Of a DNA stretch of 64,000 nt, positions 5,446 to 15,606 are shown in pieces. Source of the DNA: Variovorax boronicumulans (lineage in GTDB: Bacteria; Pseudomonadota; Gammaproteobacteria; Burkholderiales; Burkholderiaceae_C); contig NZ_JARXVG010000004.1 in assembly GCF_029892485.1 (NCBI RefSeq), positions 434,001 through 498,000 on the forward strand, given 5' to 3'. The number at the start of each line of letters is the position of its first letter. Position 1 is the stretch's first letter. The notes under the pieces were generated by a model. That model was not told the DNA's origin, did no database searches, and worked only from the letters and a program-made list of their open reading frames with translations. A program made the position numbers and the translations under genes.

Positions 5446-6171
5446 ATGCCCATCGCGCCCCGCCTCCTCGCCTTCGACACCAGCACCGAACACCTGTCGG
5501 TCGCGGTGCAAAACGGCGAGCAGCTGCTCGCGCACAGCGGCGCGGGCGGCGCGCAGGCGTCCACCACGCTGCTGCCGCTGATCCAGCAACTGCTGGCCGA
5601 CGCCGGCCTGGCGCTGGCCGATCTGGACGCCATCGTCTTCGGCCGCGGGCCGGGTTCTTTCACCGGGTTGCGCACGGCCTGCTCGGTGGCGCAGGGCCTG
5701 GCCTTCGGCGCCAACGTGCCGCTGCTGCCGGTCGATACGTTGCTGGCCGTCGCCGAGGAAGCGCGCCACGCCTTCGGCGCCCGGCAGGTGGTCGCCGTGC
5801 TCGATGCGCGCATGGACCAGCTCTACGCCGCCAGCTACGACTTCGACGCGGCTGGCCCGCTCGGCGGCGACGACGAGCCGCTGCTGCTGTCGCCCGAGGC
5901 GCTAGCCGTGCCCGCCGGCTGGTCGCTCGCCGGCAACGCCTTCACCGCCTATGGCCCGCGCCTGGCGCCGGCCACGGCCCGCCACGAGGTGCTGCCCACC
6001 GCTACCGCGATGCTGCGGCTGGCCCCCGCGTTGCTCGCGGCCGGGCGAATCGTTCCCGCGGCGCAGGCCTGGCCGCTCTATGTTCGCGATAAAGTGGCGC
6101 AAACCACCGAGGAGCGCGCCGCCATCAAGGCGGCCGCTGCCGCAGCGGTTACACCACCCACCACCGCATGA
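5446..6171 (+). CDS. tsaB: tRNA threonylcarbamoyladenosine biosynthesis protein TsaB
   Basis: Inactive ASKHA-fold partner of TsaD in the complex that transfers the threonylcarbamoyl group to A37 of tRNA. The protein (241 residues) has the N-terminal LAFDTSTEHLSVAV phosphate-1 region and the hallmark GRGPGSFTGLR segment. It overlaps rimI by four bases (ATGA), and tsaB-rimI linkage is common in proteobacteria. Together with the Sua5 gene at the left edge, two of the t6A genes are in this window. Confidence 0.95.
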   Translation: MPIAPRLLAFDTSTEHLSVAVQNGEQLLAHSGAGGAQASTTLLPLIQQLLADAGLALADLDAIVFGRGPGSFTGLRTACSVAQGLAFGANVPLLPVDTLLAVAEEARHAFGARQVVAVLDARMDQLYAASYDFDAAGPLGGDDEPLLLSPEALAVPAGWSLAGNAFTAYGPRLAPATARHEVLPTATAMLRLAPALLAAGRIVPAAQAWPLYVRDKVAQTTEERAAIKAAAAAAVTPPTTA

Positions 6172-8360: not shown

Positions 8361-9095
8361 TCAGGCTCTCCGGAGCCGGGTGAAGAGCTCGAACTCCCAG
8401 TTGCGCATCCCCAGCAGCAGCGTGTAGCCCTCGCGGTCCTTGGCCGACAGCTTCTGGTCGGTCTGGTGCTGCTGCGCGAAGTCTTGCGCCACGCGCTGCA
8501 GGCGCTCTAGGAAGGCCGGCGCCAGCGAACGGCTGATCGAGCCGTGCACCAGTAGCAGGCCCTCGGCCGGGCCGTCGAAGCCGCCGCGGTAGTAGTCCAG
8601 CACCACGTTCTCGCGGAAGAACTCCATCACCGGGCCGTGCGGCCGCCAGCGGAAGGTCTTGGCGAGCTTCAGGCGATACCGGTTGAGCGGACGCAGCTCG
8701 ATGATGCCGATGCGGTCCAGCTGCGCGAGGCAGCCGATGCACTCGGCCTCGCTGATCCGGTAGGCCGTCACGATCTGCTCCAACGTCCACTGGCTCAGCA
8801 CGCTGATGGCCACCAGCAGCAGCTTCTTGTCCTTGACCACTGCCTTTTCCTGCTCCTGCGTCAGCTCCTTGAGCAGCGGCTGGGCGTCGGCCACGCGGCG
8901 CGCGAGTTCTGCGAAATCGATCTTCAGGGCCCGGCAGATGGCGTCCACGCGCGACAGCGGCATGTCGCTCTTGGCCAGCATCCGCTTGACGCTGGATTCG
9001 GCCATGTCGAGCGACCGGGCCAGGTCGGCGTAGGTCATGCGGGCGCTTTTGAGTTCGTTCTTGAGGGCGAGTACGAGGTCGACGGTGGTGCTCAT
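8361..9095 (-). CDS. XRE-family HTH transcriptional regulator
   Basis: A 244-residue regulator. An N-terminal Cro/C1-type helix-turn-helix (YADLARSLDMAESSVKRMLA, residues about 21-40) is followed by a longer alpha/beta domain without an identifiable ligand pocket. The C-terminal part (FFRENVVLDYYRGGF onward) is a conserved extension often seen in Comamonadaceae proteins of this type. It converges with pyrF, with only four bases between the stops, and is divergent from the CREST-family membrane protein, a possible target. The target is an inference. Confidence 0.8.
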   Translation of the reverse strand: MSTTVDLVLALKNELKSARMTYADLARSLDMAESSVKRMLAKSDMPLSRVDAICRALKIDFAELARRVADAQPLLKELTQEQEKAVVKDKKLLLVAISVLSQWTLEQIVTAYRISEAECIGCLAQLDRIGIIELRPLNRYRLKLAKTFRWRPHGPVMEFFRENVVLDYYRGGFDGPAEGLLLVHGSISRSLAPAFLERLQRVAQDFAQQHQTDQKLSAKDREGYTLLLGMRNWEFELFTRLRRA

Positions 9096-9233
9096 GAAGG
9101 GTGCTGGGCGCTGGATGGGTATTAGAAAGAGATACCGTTGGGTGTGAAATAGTGCCTCGTATCGATTCTCGATGCCTGCAGAGCGACTGGCAACTAAATT
9201 CCGCGGCTCGTTACCCACCCACCGAGGTCCGCC

Positions 9234-10091
9234 ATGCTCCTGCCCACTTTCAGCCGCCGTGAACGCGCATTGCTCTTCACCTTCGCGTTGCTCACGCTGA
9301 TCGCCTTCTTCGGCCCGGCACTGCCGGCCGCCGACGTGGCGTTCGCCTCGGTCTTCGCCGACGACCGGGCCTGGCATGGCCTGCCGAACGCGATGGACGT
9401 GCTGAGCAACCTGCCGTTCGTGGTGATCGGCGTCCTCGGGCTGTACCGGCTCAATCGCATCGACCGTTCGCACCAGGAGGCGCTGGCCGAGTTCCCGCTT
9501 GCCCCGCCCGCCATCGATCCGCCGGACAACACGCTGGACTGCGCCTGGCTCTTCTTCGCCGGCCTGATCGCCACTGCCGCCGGCTCGGCCTTCTATCACC
9601 TGATGCCCGACGTCCCCCGGCTCGCGGCGGACCGCGCCGGCATGGCGGTGGCCTTCGCGGGGCTGATCGGCATCGCGGTGTGCGAACGGGTGAGCCAGCG
9701 CGCCGGCTGGCCGGCAGCGTGGTTCGTCCTCACGGCCGGCCTGCTGGCGGCCGAGGTGTCGCAGGAAAGCGGCAACGTCATGCCGTGGGCGCTGGTGCAG
9801 TTCGGCGGCATGGCGCTGGTGCTCACCCTGGCGCTGGCCGCGCCGATGCGCGGCGCGGTGGGGCTCAAGCTGGGCTGGGTGATCTTTTTCTACGCACTGG
9901 CCAAGGCCTTCGAGCTGGGCGACCGGCAGATCTACGAGGCGACGCAGCACCTGGTCTCGGGCCACACGCTCAAGCACCTGACGGCGGCGCTGGCGGGCCT
10001 GCCGGTGTTGCTGGCGCTGCGCACGCTGGAGAAGGGCTGGGAAGCACGGCTGCTGCGGCACAATCCCGACGCAGCCGCTATCACGGCCTGA
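9234..10091 (+). CDS. CREST-superfamily (alkaline ceramidase-like) integral membrane protein
   Basis: A 285-residue protein with about seven hydrophobic segments. The spaced polar motifs of the CREST hydrolase superfamily are visible: GSAFYH (Ser and His), then AADR (Asp), and near the end GHTLKH (His-x3-His), the set proposed to bind zinc in alkaline ceramidases. SNLPF after the second segment is also typical. The family acts on amide bonds in membrane lipids; the bacterial substrate is unknown. It lies 14 bp before an LplT-PlsC lipid-recycling fusion on the same strand, which supports a lipid-related role. A GAGGTC ribosome binding site precedes the ATG. Confidence 0.65.
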   Translation: MLLPTFSRRERALLFTFALLTLIAFFGPALPAADVAFASVFADDRAWHGLPNAMDVLSNLPFVVIGVLGLYRLNRIDRSHQEALAEFPLAPPAIDPPDNTLDCAWLFFAGLIATAAGSAFYHLMPDVPRLAADRAGMAVAFAGLIGIAVCERVSQRAGWPAAWFVLTAGLLAAEVSQESGNVMPWALVQFGGMALVLTLALAAPMRGAVGLKLGWVIFFYALAKAFELGDRQIYEATQHLVSGHTLKHLTAALAGLPVLLALRTLEKGWEARLLRHNPDAAAITA

Positions 10092-10105: not shown

Positions 10106-12061
10106 ATGACAACCCCCGCCGCTGCTGCCGCCCCCGTGGCGCCTCACGAAGCGAACGCTCACGCCAACCAGTTCGCCTTGCTCAAGCAGCGGCGCTTCGC
10201 GCCTTTCTTCTGGACGCAGTTCGCGGGCGCGGCGAACGACAACCTCTTCAAGTTCGCCTTCACCGTCATGGTGACCTACCAGCTCCAGTTGAGCTGGATG
10301 CCGCCGGCCATGGCGGGCCTGGCGATCGGGGCGCTGTTCATCCTGCCCTTCTTGCTGTTCTCGGCCACGGCTGGCCAGCTCACCGACAAGTTCGACAAGA
10401 CGAAGATGATCCGCTTCGTCAAGAACCTGGAAATCGCGATCATGCTGATCGCGGCCTGGGGCTTCGTCACCGCCAATGCGGTGGTGCTGCTGGGCTGCGT
10501 GTTTCTCATGGGGCTGCACTCCACGCTGTTCGGGCCGGTCAAGTTCGCCTACCTGCCGCAGGTGCTCGATTCGCGAGAGCTCACCGGCGGCAACGGCATG
10601 GTCGAGATGGGCACCTTCGTCGCGATCCTGCTGGGCCAGGTGGCGGGCGGCCTACTGGTGGCGGTGCCGCAGATCGGCCACACGAGCGTGGCCGTGGCCT
10701 GCGTGCTGCTCGCGCTGATCGGCCGGGGCGTGGCGCAGGCCATTCCGCAGGCGCCGGCCACCGACCCGGGGCTGGTCATCAACTGGAATCCCTTCAGCGA
10801 AACCTGGCGCAACCTGAAGCTCGCGCACGGCAACGTGGTGGTGTTCCGCTCGCTGCTGGGCATTTCGTGGATGTGGTTCTTCGGCGCGGTGTTCCTGAGC
10901 CAGTTTCCGAGCTTCGCCAAGGAAGTGCTGCACGGCGACGAGCAGGTGGCCTCGCTGCTGCTGGTGGTGTTCTCCATCGGCATCGGCGTCGGCTCGCTGC
11001 TGTGCGAGACGCTGAGCCGCCGGCAGGTGGAGATCGGCCTCGTGCCGCTGGGCGCGATCGGCATGAGCGTGTTCGCGATCGACCTGTACTTCGCCTCGCG
11101 CGCGCTGCCCAAGGTGGGCGAAATGGGCCTTGGCACCTTCGTGCACCAGCCCGCGCACTGGCGCGTGATGGCCGACCTGGGGCTGCTCTCGCTCTTCGCG
11201 GGCCTCTACAGCGTGCCGATGTACGCGCTCATCCAGCTGCGCAGCCAGCCCACGCACCGGGCGCGGATCATCGCGGCGAACAACATCCTCAATGCGCTGT
11301 TCATGATCGGCAGCTCGGTCATCGCGGGCGCGCTGCTGGGCGCGGGCTTCACGATTCCGCAGATCTTCCTGTTCACCGGCATCGCCAATGCGGTGGTGGC
11401 GTTCTACATCTTCATGCTGGTGCCCGAGTACCTGCTGCGCTTCGTGGCCTGGGTGCTGTCGCGCTTCGTCTACCGCTTCGACATCAAGGGCGACGAGCAC
11501 ATTCCCACCGAGGGTGCCGCCGTGCTGGTGTGCAACCACGTGAGCTTCATCGACGCGGTGCTGCTGATGGCGGCGAGCCCGCGGCCCATCCGCTTCATCA
11601 TGGACCACCGCATCTTCAAGGTGCCGGTGCTCGGCTGGCTGTTCAAGCTGGCCAAGGCCATTCCGATCGCGCCGCAGAGGGAAGACCCGGCGGCCTACGA
11701 AGCGGCCTTTGCCAAGGCGCTGGCCGTGCTGCGGGAAGGCGACCTGCTCGCGATCTTCCCCGAGGGCGCGATCACGCGCGACGGCACGCTGCAGCCCTTC
11801 AAGGGCGGCGTGATGAAGATCGTCGAGAGCGCGCGCGCCGAAGGCATCGAGCCGCCGGTGATCCCGATGGCGCTGACCAACCTCTGGGGCTCGTACTTCA
11901 GCCGCATCGAGCTGCGCGGCGGCCAGCAGGTCGCGATGGCCAAGCCTTTCCGTCGCGGCTTCTACAGCCGCGTGGGCCTGAACGTCGGGCAGGCCGTGCC
12001 GCCGCTGGAGGTGCGGCCCGAGGCGCTGCAGCAGCGCGTGAGCGGGCTGCTGGTGGCCTGA
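10106..12061 (+). CDS. LplT-like MFS transporter fused to a PlsC acyltransferase
   Basis: Predicted to flip lysophospholipid across the inner membrane and re-acylate it. Residues about 30-445 form an MFS domain of the LplT type, opening with FWTQFAGAANDNLFKFA. Residues about 460-651 are a glycerophospholipid acyltransferase with NHVSFID (His478, Asp483) and FPEG (551-554). In E. coli LplT is separate and works with Aas, in which the acyltransferase is fused to an acyl-ACP synthetase; here the synthetase domain is absent. The ATG at 10106 follows AGGAG at good spacing, 14 bp after the CREST-family gene, so the two look co-transcribed. Confidence 0.87.
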   Translation: MTTPAAAAAPVAPHEANAHANQFALLKQRRFAPFFWTQFAGAANDNLFKFAFTVMVTYQLQLSWMPPAMAGLAIGALFILPFLLFSATAGQLTDKFDKTKMIRFVKNLEIAIMLIAAWGFVTANAVVLLGCVFLMGLHSTLFGPVKFAYLPQVLDSRELTGGNGMVEMGTFVAILLGQVAGGLLVAVPQIGHTSVAVACVLLALIGRGVAQAIPQAPATDPGLVINWNPFSETWRNLKLAHGNVVVFRSLLGISWMWFFGAVFLSQFPSFAKEVLHGDEQVASLLLVVFSIGIGVGSLLCETLSRRQVEIGLVPLGAIGMSVFAIDLYFASRALPKVGEMGLGTFVHQPAHWRVMADLGLLSLFAGLYSVPMYALIQLRSQPTHRARIIAANNILNALFMIGSSVIAGALLGAGFTIPQIFLFTGIANAVVAFYIFMLVPEYLLRFVAWVLSRFVYRFDIKGDEHIPTEGAAVLVCNHVSFIDAVLLMAASPRPIRFIMDHRIFKVPVLGWLFKLAKAIPIAPQREDPAAYEAAFAKALAVLREGDLLAIFPEGAITRDGTLQPFKGGVMKIVESARAEGIEPPVIPMALTNLWGSYFSRIELRGGQQVAMAKPFRRGFYSRVGLNVGQAVPPLEVRPEALQQRVSGLLVA

Positions 12062-12178
12062 AAAGTATCCCTGCGAGATACCAGTAGCGGCCCAAACCGC
12101 AACTGGGCCAAGCATTCGAGTCCCGCGGTGCGGTGGCGAACCATCATTCGCCCACCTTCACAACGCCGCGAGGCACTC

Positions 12179-12676
12179 ATGCAACCCTTCTCATCCACCA
12201 CCGTTTCGATCCAGCGCGACACGCGGGCCTGGCAGTTCCAGGCCTGGGCCTCCTTCGCAGTCGCCGTCTTCCTCTGCGCCACCGGCTTGAGCTGGCTGCC
12301 GGGCGAGGCGCTGGACCGGGCGTTCATGGTGATGGGCTACGTGTTCTGCCTGAGCACCGCCTTCGTGCTGGCGAAGTTCATCCGCGACAGCCGGCAGGCC
12401 GAAGGCGCCGCCAGCCGCGACGTGCCCATGTGGCGCCTCGTGGTCTGGGGCAGCTTCTTCACCGCGATAGGCCTGACCGGCTGGGGTCTGGTCCGAATGG
12501 ACATCAACGACGCCTACAAGGCCTTCCTGGGCGTGAGCTGGCTGTTCCTCATCAGCTCGGCGTTCACGCTGGCCAAGACGCTGCGCGACCGCCATGAAGC
12601 CGACCTGATCGACGCCCGCCTGCAAGGCCGCCGCGCCGCCCGCCAGGAAGCCGCTGCTTCCGCCTCGGCCGCATGA
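12179..12676 (+). CDS. YiaA/YiaB-family inner membrane protein
   Basis: A 165-residue protein with two copies of a two-helix membrane unit, about residues 18-60 and 84-125. Each ends in a related basic motif (LAKFIRDSRQAE and LAKTLRDRHEAD), the internal duplication typical of the YiaAB family. The function of the family is unknown. Start at ATG 12179; the upstream candidate adds an unconserved arginine-rich stretch. A possible start of the next gene overlaps its stop (ATGA). Confidence 0.8.
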   Translation: MQPFSSTTVSIQRDTRAWQFQAWASFAVAVFLCATGLSWLPGEALDRAFMVMGYVFCLSTAFVLAKFIRDSRQAEGAASRDVPMWRLVVWGSFFTAIGLTGWGLVRMDINDAYKAFLGVSWLFLISSAFTLAKTLRDRHEADLIDARLQGRRAARQEAAASASAA

Positions 12677-12717
12677 GCCGCCGTATTCCGTCCACCGTCA
12701 GCCAACGAAAGAACGTC

Positions 12718-13176
12718 ATGAAAAAGTCCATGGCCACGCTTGCTCTCGCCGTCTGCACCGCGTTCGCGGGTGTCGCGGCTCCGCTTCACGCGCAGGCCCA
12801 GAGCGATGCATCGGCCGCGCTCTCGCTGCTGCCCGTCGCCTCGGTGATCGGCGCGGCGTCCGTCGTCGGCGCTTCCGCCATGGCGGTGGTTGCGGTGCCC
12901 GCGGCACTGTCGGTGGGCGGCTCCACGCTCGCCGTGGTGGCCGTCGAGGCGTCGGCCGACGGCACCGTCTATGTGCTGGAACGCGCATCGGACGGCGCGC
13001 GCGCCAGCGTCAAGGTGATGGGGCGCGCCGCCAACGGCGCGGCCGCCTCGGTCGGCACGGCCGTCGTGGTCAGCGTGATCGGCAGCGGCATCGTGCTGTC
13101 GGCCGCGGGCGAGGTGCTGGCCTTCGTGCCGAATGCCATCGGCCGTGCGCTGTTGCACAACGAGAGGCTGTCATGA
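12718..13176 (+). CDS. Exported hydrophobic protein of unknown function
   Basis: A 152-residue protein with a clear Sec signal peptide (MKKSMATLALAVCTAFAG, cleavage probably after LHAQAQ). The mature part is very rich in Ala, Val, Gly and Ser with two long apolar stretches separated by a short charged region (TVYVLERASDGARASVKV), so it may associate with a membrane. I do not recognise the family. An alternative start at 12673 would overlap the YiaA/B stop by four bases, but it places 15 charged residues before the signal peptide. Its stop overlaps the DUF2145 start (ATGA), which suggests a shared job. Confidence 0.65.
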   Translation: MKKSMATLALAVCTAFAGVAAPLHAQAQSDASAALSLLPVASVIGAASVVGASAMAVVAVPAALSVGGSTLAVVAVEASADGTVYVLERASDGARASVKVMGRAANGAAASVGTAVVVSVIGSGIVLSAAGEVLAFVPNAIGRALLHNERLS

Positions 13177-13958
13177 AGCGCGCGCTCGCGGTGTGCCTGC
13201 TCGCGCTCGTGGCACTGCAGGCGCAGGCCGGCCGCTCGTGCGAGCAGGTCAAGCCGAGTCCGGCGCTCATCGTCAAAGGCATGCAGTTGGCCGAGCGCAC
13301 GTCGCAGCAGCTCGATACGAGCGGCGCGCGCGTCGTGCTGCTGGCGCGCGCCGGGCAGGACCTGAGCAAGTACGGCCTGCGCTACTCGCACCTGGGCATT
13401 GCCTACAAGACCGACGAAGGCCCGTGGCGCGTGGTGCACAAGCTCAACCAGTGCGGCACCGCGGTGGCTGCGGTCTACCGGCAGGGGCTCGGCGAATTCT
13501 TCCTCGATGACCTGTGGCGCTACGAAGCCGCCTGGATCGTGCCCACGCCGCAGGTACAGACGCAGCTCTTGGCCGCGCTCAACGAGTCGCCCTCGCGCAT
13601 CGTGCGGCTCAACGTGGCGCCCTACAGCATCGTGAGCTACGCCTGGGGCCAGAAATACCAGCAGTCGAACCAATGGGCCATCGAGACGCTGGCTGCGGCC
13701 ATGGAGCCCGCCACCATCAACAACCGCGCGCAGGCACAGGCGTGGATGCAGTTCAAGGGCTACGAACCGACCACCTTGAAGCTCGGCCCGCTCACCCGGC
13801 TGGGCGGCCGCGTGGGCTCGGCAAACATTGCCTTCGACGATCATCCGAACGAAAAGCGGTTTTCGGACCGCATCGAGACAGTGACGGTCGACTCGGTCTT
13901 TGCGTGGATGCCGCGCGCGGGGCTGGGTTCGGCGCCGGTGGCGTTCAAGCTGCAGTAA
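13173..13958 (+). CDS. DUF2145 exported protein
   Basis: A 261-residue protein with an N-terminal signal peptide (cleavage near LQAQA-GRS). It carries the DUF2145 features YSHLGIAYK and SYAWGQKYQQSNQWAIETLA. Two mature cysteines (Cys23 or nearby, and the Cys of LNQCGT) could form a disulfide. The SHLGIA segment looks like the histidine motif of permuted NlpC/P60-type papain-like hydrolases, but I see no cysteine at the partner position, so hydrolase activity is speculative. It is translationally coupled to the upstream exported protein, and 25 bp separate it from the zinc-ribbon membrane protein. Confidence 0.8.
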   Translation: MKRALAVCLLALVALQAQAGRSCEQVKPSPALIVKGMQLAERTSQQLDTSGARVVLLARAGQDLSKYGLRYSHLGIAYKTDEGPWRVVHKLNQCGTAVAAVYRQGLGEFFLDDLWRYEAAWIVPTPQVQTQLLAALNESPSRIVRLNVAPYSIVSYAWGQKYQQSNQWAIETLAAAMEPATINNRAQAQAWMQFKGYEPTTLKLGPLTRLGGRVGSANIAFDDHPNEKRFSDRIETVTVDSVFAWMPRAGLGSAPVAFKLQ

Positions 13959-13983
13959 CTACAAATCCAGAAGAAAGCATCGA

Positions 13984-15048
13984 ATGAGCAAGTCATTGCG
14001 CCTGTCCGAAAAATGGTTTCGCCGCGGCCTCTGGCTCGTGGCGCTGGTGTTCGCGAGCTTCCTGATCGGCCTGGGCAGCACGGTCGTCGGCGACCTGCCG
14101 CAGGTCGAGCGCGTGCGCGGCATCGACGACTTCATCGACCTGCGCGCGGCCGAGCCGCTGCGCGACACCATCAAGGCGTCGGAAGCCGCGGAGTTGCAGG
14201 CCTCACGCGACCTCGACCAGATTCGCCTGCAGCTCAATGCCGCGCAGCAGGCCAGCGCCAATGCGCGTGAGACTTTCGGCAACTGGATCGCCACTCGCCG
14301 CGCGACCGCGCAGCCCGACCAGGACACCGAGCTCATCGCGCGCACCAAGGCGCTCGATGCGTTCAAGCAGAAGGAAGATGCGGTCCAGCGCCAGGTCAAT
14401 GCGCAGCAGAAGATCATGCTCGACGCGCGCCAGGCCGAGCAGCGCGCCCGCACGACGCTCGCGGAACTGGAGCGCGATGCGCAGGTGAAGCTCGATGCCG
14501 AGTACCGCCGCATCGAGCTGCGCGTGTTCGCCTACCGCCTGGCGCTCACGTTGCCGCTGCTGGTCGTGGCCGGCTGGCTGTTCGCGAAGAAGCGCAAGAG
14601 CACCTACTGGCCGTTCGTCTGGGGCTTCATCTTCTTCGCGCTGTTCGCGTTCTTCGTTGAGCTGGTGCCGTACCTGCCAAGCTACGGCGGCTATGTGCGC
14701 TACGTGGTGGGGATCGTGCTCACGGTGCTGGTGGGGCGCTACGCCATCGTTGCGCTCAACGCGTATCTCGCGCGCCAGAAGCTCGCCGAGCAGCAGCCCG
14801 ACCAGGTGCGCCGCGAAGAGTTGAGCTACGACGTTGCGCTCGCACGGCTCGGCAAGGGCGTGTGCCCCGGCTGCGAGCGGCCGGTGGACCTGAAGAACGG
14901 CGAGATCGATTTCTGCCCGCATTGCGGCATCGGCCTGTTCGACCACTGCGGCGTGTGCGAGGCGCGCAAGAGCGCGTTCTCGAAGTTCTGCCACGCCTGC
15001 GGCACCTCGGCGCATGCGGGGCCCGGTAGCGGCACAGCGCTAGCCTGA
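13984..15048 (+). CDS. Coiled-coil membrane protein with C-terminal double zinc ribbon
   Basis: A 354-residue protein. One membrane segment (about 13-35) is followed by a long, probably periplasmic coiled coil (about 50-180, rich in Ala, Gln, Arg, Glu). A cluster of three membrane segments follows (about 180-270), then a cytoplasmic tail with four CxxC pairs: CPGC, CPHC, CGVC and CHAC, i.e. two zinc ribbons. No enzymatic motif is visible, so it looks like a scaffold or sensor. It follows DUF2145 by 25 bp on the same strand, so it is probably in the same operon. The family name is not known to me. Confidence 0.7.
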   Translation: MSKSLRLSEKWFRRGLWLVALVFASFLIGLGSTVVGDLPQVERVRGIDDFIDLRAAEPLRDTIKASEAAELQASRDLDQIRLQLNAAQQASANARETFGNWIATRRATAQPDQDTELIARTKALDAFKQKEDAVQRQVNAQQKIMLDARQAEQRARTTLAELERDAQVKLDAEYRRIELRVFAYRLALTLPLLVVAGWLFAKKRKSTYWPFVWGFIFFALFAFFVELVPYLPSYGGYVRYVVGIVLTVLVGRYAIVALNAYLARQKLAEQQPDQVRREELSYDVALARLGKGVCPGCERPVDLKNGEIDFCPHCGIGLFDHCGVCEARKSAFSKFCHACGTSAHAGPGSGTALA

Positions 15049-15228
15049 GCCGCGCGTGGAGGCGCTGCACTTTCCACTGCAAGCGGGTATTCCGCACGCT
15101 GCGTGGCCAACTTTGGCGAAGCTGTCGCCGCAAAGTGTTAGAACCTTGGCCTGCGCTGCATTTCGCACGCAGCCGGCGTTCACTTTCATGCATCGCCCGG
15201 CCTCCACCACGCACGACGAGGACCTCCC

Positions 15229-15606
15229 ATGAGCTTTTTCGGCAAGATTTTTTCCAAGATTTTTCCGTCGGCCAACGCCGCTGAAGTCGTCGCCGCACCG
15301 CCGGCGGCTGCACCGGGCGCACCGGCCGTTGCGGCACCGCCGCCCTCGATCCCGCTGGGCGACGTGCCCGCCATCCTGGACGCGATGCCCGGTGCCGCCG
15401 CCCTGAACTGGCGCACCTCCATCGTCGACCTGCTCAAGTTGCTGGGCCTGGACAGCAGCCTCGCCGCGCGCAAGGAACTGGCCAGCGAAATTCTCTACAG
15501 CGACGGCGAGCCCGGTTCGGCCGAATGGAACATCGGCCTGCACAAGCAGGTGATGACCCGCATCGCAGCCAATGGCGGCACGCTGCCAGCCGAACTGCGC
15601 GACTGA
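15229..15606 (+). CDS. DUF3597 domain protein
   Basis: A 125-residue protein. The N-terminus MSFFGKIFSKIF looks like a short amphipathic helix, followed by an Ala/Pro-rich linker (about 17-45) and a folded C-terminal domain (LNWRTSIVDLLKLLGLD to the end). That domain carries WNIGLHKQVM and fits DUF3597. Members resemble LysM-associated or secreted small helical domains, but no function is established. A GAGGAC ribosome binding site lies before the ATG, and a strong intrinsic terminator follows 20 bp after the stop. The 180 bp upstream hold no gene that I can see. Confidence 0.78.
   Translation: MSFFGKIFSKIFPSANAAEVVAAPPAAAPGAPAVAAPPPSIPLGDVPAILDAMPGAAALNWRTSIVDLLKLLGLDSSLAARKELASEILYSDGEPGSAEWNIGLHKQVMTRIAANGGTLPAELRD

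Follow-up and report, generated by a model that had tools for sequence, protein, structure and literature searches.

Which process is served by a row of tightly packed genes whose products belong to families without a known function? This question is raised by a 64,000-nucleotide stretch of Variovorax boronicumulans (contig NZ_JARXVG010000004.1, positions 434,001 to 498,000), hereafter the window, in which genes for a YiaAB protein, a small apolar exported protein, a DUF2145 protein and a coiled-coil membrane protein with a zinc ribbon follow each other. A sequence-only reading had taken these genes as possibly one envelope system and had seen in DUF2145 a resemblance to permuted papain-like hydrolases. 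Our results support this reading in outline, and neither of the two outcomes named as refuting it, scattered genes in relatives or an unrelated fold of DUF2145, was seen, within the limits given below. The best explanation, in which our confidence is evenly balanced, is a regulator-controlled envelope lipid-remodelling operon that is coupled to lysophospholipid recycling and made in biofilm. Its elements are the following:

12064 to 12082, no strand: palindrome AGTATC-N7-GATACC, the proposed operon switch, 115 to 97 bp before the YiaAB start
12179 to 12676, forward strand: YiaAB, inner membrane protein with two YiaAB domains (PF05360, E = 8.9e-31, two stretches)
12718 to 13176, forward strand: small apolar exported protein, the DUF2145 partner (signal peptide assigned by eye)
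13173 to 13958, forward strand: DUF2145, exported, permuted NlpC/P60-like fold by model comparison (PF09916, E = 9.4e-82)
13984 to 15048, forward strand: zinc-ribbon membrane protein of 354 residues; it has four hydrophobic segments, the first two of which enclose a coiled coil, and ends in a double zinc ribbon

The tight packing of the four genes on the forward strand is confirmed, and the spacings (-4 or +41, -4 and +25 bp) are in line with the sequence-only reading. The apolar gene starts either at 12718, 41 bp after YiaAB, or at an alternative ATG at 12673, which gives a 4-bp overlap with YiaAB. The DUF2145 gene overlaps the apolar gene by 4 bp, and the zinc-ribbon gene begins 25 bp after DUF2145.

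DUF2145 loci were collected from genomes of the genus, class and phylum, from plasmid records and from named GTDB genomes, of which the 80 best of a longer list were taken. Thinning by identical cores reduced the 189 loci to 148, a set that is weighted to Comamonadaceae. According to the residue at position 165 of DUF2145 (see below) we distinguish Ser-type and Cys-type loci. Gene order was counted in the 115 loci that extend 2.5 kb or more to each side, 92 of which are Ser-type. Gene-neighbourhood conservation had been named as a check, and in 67 of these 92 loci DUF2145 is indeed flanked on the same strand by YiaAB upstream and the zinc-ribbon gene downstream. Of the others, 7 have only YiaAB, 6 have only the zinc-ribbon gene, 1 is arranged differently and 11 have neither gene. 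The four-gene order is kept in most Comamonadaceae loci examined, beyond chance.

In the loci examined outside this family the constant parts are the exported partner and DUF2145 only, and next to DUF2145 in genomes of other families no zinc-ribbon gene was found. Of the 22 Cys-type loci, 4 have YiaAB close to DUF2145, directly downstream on the same strand in L083 and L086 and about 1.4 kb upstream on the opposite strand in L076 and L077. Of 398 genomes sampled from the phylum, 39 contain DUF2145. Among the listed named genomes (best 80) the closest relative is that of V. paradoxus MEDvA23 (97%), and no relatives were found among viral contigs. Two loci are unusual. In L060 (genome G404, 420 contigs) YiaAB and DUF2145 are each split across two frames and the zinc-ribbon gene is open, by breakage or assembly error. 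L103 comes from a Salmonella record labelled plasmid (CP082688.1), which looks like a piece of chromosome because it carries folD, cysS, ppiB, lpxH, purE and fim genes.

An alignment of the DNA upstream of YiaAB reveals a GTATC-N7-GATAC site some 114 bp ahead of the gene start, whose arms are conserved and whose spacer varies freely (0.04 to 0.56 bits per spacer column over 99 sites, which were picked by their arms). Among the 92 Ser-type loci with a zinc-ribbon gene and 1.4 kb of upstream sequence, 89 contain it with at most one mismatch and 66 exactly. Reversed and everted controls yield 1 and 1 of 92 at up to one mismatch and 0 and 0 exact sites. When all 112 Ser-type loci that have 1.4 kb of upstream sequence are counted, 99 contain the palindrome at no more than one mismatch. 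Even where the YiaAB, apolar and DUF2145 genes are not intact, in five Variovorax genomes (L095, L213 to L216), the exact palindrome and the zinc-ribbon gene are kept, with short remnants between them; L214 to L216 are alike and may reflect a single old loss. This conservation, including the five loss genomes, is good evidence that the four genes form one transcription unit. In L095 (genome G379, about 5780 to 6130) a deletion joined the start of YiaAB to the end of DUF2145; the apolar gene is gone, and palindrome and zinc-ribbon gene are kept. A sixth Variovorax genome without DUF2145 (G409, 62% complete) gave no zinc-ribbon match.

Searching the whole genome for GGTATC-N7-GATACC with at most one mismatch gives 5 places, against 1 for the reversed control. 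Three of them, outside the locus, may be due to chance because no clear regulon member was found there. Just ahead of the YiaAB gene, the leader at 12145 to 12178 (ACCTTCAC-ACGCCGCGAGGC) is highly conserved in Variovorax, more so than a ribosome-binding site would require. A sigma-54 or ECF (extracytoplasmic function) promoter in the leader, judged by eye, was not supported. The open-access literature on the palindrome arms as an operator holds nothing on these genes by title.

Published expression data agree with a single unit. In RNA-seq of V. paradoxus EPS, Varpa_5795 was raised 42.2-fold, Varpa_5794 35.4-fold, Varpa_5796 30.4-fold and Varpa_5797 ('yiaab') 26.2-fold (PMC7494200, Table 1), and all four belong to the 25 loci with the strongest increase seen in biofilm only; in the available part of that source the tags occur in Table 1 only. 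That these tags are the four operon genes we infer from their position. In genome G429 the four genes stand in order, with DUF2145 at 6.302 Mb on the minus strand and YiaAB at 6.303 Mb; the other YiaAB gene is at 6.440 Mb. Three PilY1 places in G429, taken as Varpa_3518, Varpa_4912 and Varpa_5900, interpolate Varpa_5795 to 6.3055 Mb (by hand), and the YiaAB gene at 6.303 Mb lies within 5 kb of the PilY1-based position of Varpa_5797. If this mapping is right, the four genes are co-induced in strain EPS.

Do the four proteins also share one task? The gene order and the shared palindrome speak for the claim of one envelope system, but the zinc-ribbon gene is separable and persists where the other three are gone. 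It could be that the genes are merely co-transcribed and that the zinc-ribbon protein does something else, given that its gene is kept in 5 of the 6 Variovorax genomes without intact DUF2145 (the sixth assembly being 62% complete) and was not found beside DUF2145 in other families. All five zinc-ribbon-only genomes nevertheless keep the palindrome, and Varpa_5794 is co-induced with the other three (PMC7494200). We consider such a mere co-transcription rather unlikely.

The question of what switches the operon leads to the region upstream:

8361 to 9095, reverse strand: gene of a Cro/C1-type helix-turn-helix (HTH) regulator, 244 amino acids, start MSTTVDL (PF13443 HTH_26, 39.8 bits against a cut-off of 22)
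9118 to 9136, no strand: palindrome GGTATT-N7-GATACC beside the regulator gene, one mismatch to GGTATC-N7-GATACC
9234 to 10091, forward strand: membrane protein, weakly ceramidase-like (PF05875, E = 0.059, 13.2 bits against a cut-off of 32.5)
10106 to 12061, forward strand: LplT-type major facilitator superfamily (MFS) transporter fused to a PlsC-type acyltransferase (PF07690 and PF01553, both over cut-off)

In other proteobacteria a relative of the regulator is divergently adjacent to the partner-DUF2145 pair. A widened form of the palindrome, RGTAT-N9-ATACY, which was selected after viewing the very loci counted, is present in the intergenic region of 17 of 17 such loci with at most one mismatch, where shuffled sequence predicts 0.51, and exactly in 12, where 0.01 would be expected. 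A survey of the 398 genomes of the phylum (E <= 1e-12, best match per genome) found the regulator in 30. On its divergent side lies DUF2145 in 14 genomes, an LplT/MFS-acyltransferase in 10 (in 7 behind a ceramidase-like gene) and another gene in 6, and in 26 of the 30 the widened motif (up to one mismatch) lies no more than 90 bp from the start of the regulator. Regulator and DUF2145 occur together in 23 of the 398 genomes, compared to 30 and 39 for each (Fisher p = 4.5e-21, uncorrected for kinship). In the distant loci L234 and L235, which lack DUF2145 and whose regulators are 37% and 35% identical, the neighbouring gene matches the LplT part of acyl-ACP--phospholipid O-acyltransferase (ACP, acyl carrier protein; E about 1e-126). 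At L236 2359-3408 (exact palindrome, no DUF2145) the regulator relative is turned towards a 3-oxoacyl-ACP synthase III-like gene, which may be one more lipid gene belonging to the regulon.

These neighbours in different genomes link the regulator both to DUF2145 and to lipid genes. The regulatory link between operon, palindrome and regulator is well supported; the HTH gene is the probable regulator of the operon and its product presumably binds the palindrome. The unit is wider than the sequence-only reading had it, as it takes in the palindrome, the linked regulator gene and the lipid-repair neighbour. A PDB sequence search with the regulator gave a best E of 0.063. A further site, CGTATCGATTCTCGATGCC (9158 to 9176, 40 bp from the regulator palindrome), is nearly invariant in Variovorax relatives and keeps one palindrome arm.

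The ceramidase-like gene lies between the regulator and the LplT gene, and relatives are found in the same place in many Comamonadaceae loci. The fused LplT-acyltransferase aligns to NF005291 with E = 1.1e-155 (residues 22 to 604 of the frame from 10100, profile positions 2 to 575 of 1140); its 520 bits stay below the curated cut-off of 1349 because the second half of the profile is absent. The fused protein of Pseudomonas aeruginosa (PA3267) is described as required to regenerate phosphatidylethanolamine from its lyso form (PMC8926400), with an added role against lipase attack (PMC12663445). E. coli LplT-Aas is described as recycling lysophospholipids made by PldA (PMC13170283).

What could DUF2145 contribute? 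The protein matches PF09916 over the whole profile (273.8 bits against a cut-off of 25). Its structure model (predicted local distance difference test, pLDDT, 91.5; 26 sequences) is nearest to permuted NlpC/P60 structures: YiiX with Z = 11.7 over 169 residues at 4.0 A, the permuted cysteine peptidase 3kw0 of Bacillus with 9.0 and TseH with 8.1. The papain-like hydrolase claim thus stands as far as the fold is concerned, by model, but the nucleophile position holds Ser and not Cys. The SHLGIA motif that had drawn attention corresponds to residues 72 to 77. The candidate active-site residues are:

13389 to 13391, forward strand: His73, candidate catalytic His (His in 146 of 146 sequences covering the position)
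13437 to 13439, forward strand: His89, candidate third residue (His in 114 of 114 Ser-type sequences)
13623 to 13625, forward strand: Tyr151, possibly the Tyr that is conserved among permuted NlpC/P60 enzymes (present in 147 of 147)
13665 to 13667, forward strand: Ser165, nucleophile position (Ser in 114, Cys in 33 of 147)

At position 89 the 33 Cys-type sequences have Asn (25), Gln (7) or Ser (1), so that a polar third residue (His, Asn or Gln), assigned by motif and order only, is seen in 146 of 147. Of the features of permuted NlpC/P60 enzymes, DUF2145 shows the fold, the Tyr, which is part of their signature (PMC3142127), and the polar third residue, and has Ser165 in place of the catalytic Cys. 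DUF2145 is already listed in print as papain-like with a conserved Ser replacing Cys (PMC10318531). Our counts narrow that statement, as 33 of 147 sequences have Cys. In a maximum-likelihood tree of 69 sequences there is one Cys/Ser change (branch support 93/92; 92% of bootstrap trees), with a warning of the program for long branches (L103, L073 and the join of second copies); Ser therefore marks one group and not all DUF2145. Residues 165 and 89 differ together between the two types. Cys23 and Cys94, which possibly form a disulfide, occur together in 113 of 114 Ser-type sequences, the remaining one having a gap at position 23. They are also found in the seven second copies, but not in the other Cys types. 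A Ser-His-His site in a permuted papain fold would, if true, be chemically unusual.

A comparison of DUF2145 with four Peptidase C92 relatives by hhalign gave no support for the residue mapping; with one of them the SHxG stretch was aligned (E = 0.0037, probability 8.9%). The best match of a PDB sequence search had E = 0.91.

The most constant companion of DUF2145 is its partner. In 140 of 147 loci a simple script found the gene of a small exported apolar protein immediately in front of DUF2145, compared to 40 of 566 positions chosen at random; this count contains one doubtful pick (L084), excludes wrong picks in L071 and L095, and was made with a script that missed real partners in L100 (found by profile) and L104 (apolar threshold). 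The partner is absent or unrecognised in L070, L071, L072, L014, L084 and L091. Three kinds can be told apart: the apolar type of the window (A3), a His/Ser-containing type of about 100 to 135 residues with an AVP motif in Cys-type loci (A4), and a Ser-rich type beside second DUF2145 copies in Comamonadaceae and relatives (A5). These second copies (L074, L075, L079, L080, L093, L094, L104) are of Cys/Gln type and have the Ser-rich partner directly upstream.

The apolar protein of the window has no Pfam or NCBIfam match at E <= 1, including the STM0539 family NF033820 and DUF7765 (PF24958). Its profile aligns weakly with a Salmonella STM0539-family protein (probability 40.8%), and the Salmonella partner in turn aligns weakly with A3 and A5. 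The model (pLDDT 60.6, predicted template modelling score 0.32) has low confidence at residues 23 to 65 and a small beta domain at about 63 to 146 (pLDDT blocks 48 to 81). Its best Z against the PDB was 4.5, with no Foldseek E below 0.2, which we treated as no match.

With a Ser at the nucleophile position, Ser-type DUF2145 might also be non-catalytic and bind or escort the apolar partner or a lipid through the periplasm, leaving enzyme activity to the Cys types. The single Cys/Ser change on the tree, with Ser fixed within the group, and the exported apolar gene in front of DUF2145 in 140 of 147 loci would fit such a role. However, within the Ser type His73 is invariant (113 of 113 covering sequences), as are His89, Tyr151, Gln163 and Ser165 (114 of 114 each), and residues 89 and 165 differ together, whereas a dead site is expected to drift. 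A purely escorting role is therefore unlikely in our view.

Permuted NlpC/P60 proteins are described as having a hydrophobic pocket and, in the case of YiiX, a fatty acid bound (PMC3142127), and one such protein as a phospholipase in vitro that yields lysophospholipids (PMC12994826). LnsA, an exported YiiX/HRASLS-like protein, serves lipoprotein N-acylation (PMC7387801). The shared regulation together with the fold points to acyl chemistry on envelope lipids. Action on peptidoglycan, as with canonical NlpC/P60 enzymes, would agree with the superfamily membership by fold and with a periplasmic location, but the nearest folds are permuted members for which lipid binding or activity is reported (PMC3142127, PMC12994826). 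We consider peptidoglycan a very unlikely substrate. Hardly probable at all is that DUF2145 is a peptidase or amidase that processes the apolar protein into a signal to the HTH regulator, on the model of hydrophobic-peptide signalling next to HTH regulators in Gram-positives: the divergent regulator, the small, apolar and exported partner and the induction in dense biofilm would suit it, but the other genes linked to the regulator are those of lipid metabolism, and the five genomes without partner and DUF2145 keep the palindrome, with at least one (G379, the only one searched) keeping the regulator gene.

For the lipid-remodelling operon we propose the following course. The HTH regulator, encoded 3 kb upstream, most likely binds the operon palindrome, and the same regulator and palindrome would also control the adjoining lysophospholipid transporter/acyltransferase gene. 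Periplasmic DUF2145 would hydrolyse or transfer an acyl chain of an envelope lipid via Ser165-His73-His89, probably working together with the apolar exported protein; YiaAB and the zinc-ribbon protein may be the inner-membrane side of DUF2145. The lysophospholipid formed would be taken up and re-acylated by the LplT-acyltransferase, and the gene set would be made during biofilm life. Within this scheme we infer the lipid as substrate, Ser165 as the working nucleophile, the contact between DUF2145 and its partner, and the sign of regulation.

A number of results, next to the after-the-fact choice of the widened motif, weigh against this explanation. At the level of regulation, 13 of 112 Ser-type loci are without GTATC-N7-GATAC upstream, no sigma-70 promoter was found at the operon, and the regulator is missing from 16 of 39 genomes with DUF2145, as is DUF2145 from 7 of 30 with the regulator. 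Judged by position, the published top-25 list (PMC7494200) contains neither the regulator nor the LplT gene. The zinc-ribbon gene, kept in the five loss genomes, does not need the other three genes. For DUF2145, Foldseek returned nothing at E <= 0.001 (lowest E not below 0.4) and there is no significant profile match to Peptidase C92 relatives, so that the fold rests on the second-look aligner; moreover, Ser in place of Cys may make the protein inactive. Profile comparisons do not establish homology among the three partner types (A3-A4 E = 0.014, 3%; A3-A5 E = 0.0024, 12%; A5-A4 E = 0.056). Finally, no biochemistry of the four proteins was found in the open-access literature, where STM0539 appears only as a table entry, nothing was found on YiaA with YiaB as inner membrane protein, and nothing by title on LplT with the XRE family.

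The two membrane proteins and the gene behind them deserve some further detail. YiaAB matches PF05360 (106.3 bits against a cut-off of 26.6) and scores 33 bits with the narrower NCBIfam YiaA model, below the cut-off of 150. A second YiaAB gene of the same genome (C4:316506-316853; L186, L188) has higher scores and lies about 130 kb from DUF2145. The zinc-ribbon protein has hydrophobic segments at 12 to 30, 179 to 197, 210 to 228 and 240 to 258. Judged by eye and the positive-inside rule, the coiled coil between the first two is predicted to be periplasmic and the ribbon cytosolic. The double zinc ribbon profile PF12773 is not reached (23.8 bits against 27.3), and at least four CxxC motifs are present in 104 of 106 homologues. 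None of the four operon proteins matched PADLOC at E <= 0.1. A defence system was rejected: the single PADLOC match was mad1 (E = 0.0067), on the HTH part of the regulator. Downstream follows:

15229 to 15606: DUF3597 gene, after a 180-bp gap behind the zinc-ribbon gene

The interval of the sequence-only reading covers the four-gene set, but by ending at 15606 it includes this fifth gene, which its text leaves unmentioned. We left DUF3597 out of the operon because it follows in only 33 of 75 relatives (those with a zinc-ribbon gene and 3 kb of downstream sequence), as counted by single-sequence search; an iterated profile had drifted into chance frames. In Bacillus phage endolysins the DUF3597 domain is taken as a putative cell-wall binding domain (PMC11674121).

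How does the locus compare to known systems? DUF2145 resembles the permuted NlpC/P60 enzymes (YaeF/YiiX, LRAT/HRASLS, LnsA, Tox-Act1) in fold, in a His before the nucleophile, in the Tyr and in the polar third residue. It differs by Ser for Cys and a His as third residue in this lineage, by a sequence match that is not significant, and by its position, which is almost always after the gene of an exported partner and in many cases close to an HTH regulator. The Salmonella STM0539/DUF7765-DUF2145 pair has the same order of partner and DUF2145, the 4-bp overlap and the Ser type; its partner, unlike that of Variovorax, matches NF033820 and PF24958, and its 16.7-kb stretch contains no YiaAB, zinc-ribbon gene or GTATC-N7-GATAC palindrome. 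LplT-Aas repair of E. coli, or by the fused PA3267 of P. aeruginosa, shares the fused transporter-acyltransferase architecture with 10106 to 12061 (PMC8926400), whereas the available part of that description makes no mention of this regulator, the palindrome or DUF2145. LnsA-LnsB of Staphylococcus likewise combines an exported YiiX/HRASLS-like protein with an integral membrane protein, but LnsA has a His/Cys dyad and the membrane partner is of CPBP type rather than YiaAB or zinc-ribbon; the available part of the source names no exported apolar partner and no shared regulator (PMC7387801).

A bolder version of the explanation, which we offer tentatively and regard as quite unlikely in its full extent, is an undescribed lipid-repair system. 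Here an unstudied regulator would sense membrane lipid damage in surface-grown cells, and one palindrome would switch on lysophospholipid recycling together with a periplasmic Ser-His-His acyltransferase of permuted papain fold, which would load or unload acyl chains on a dedicated exported acceptor protein.

The papain-like nature of DUF2145 was already in print (PMC10318531), and the strong biofilm induction of the operon, if our mapping holds, has stood in a printed table since 2020 (PMC7494200). What we add is the palindrome with its linked regulator, a connection to lysophospholipid repair, the division of DUF2145 into Ser and Cys types and, under the same proviso, the recognition of the biofilm induction. 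Families without a known function are hereby connected with a single switch, a probable regulator, a condition of growth and a candidate chemistry, all open to test in a soil bacterium, and DUF2145, present in 39 of 398 genomes, gains a testable hypothesis.

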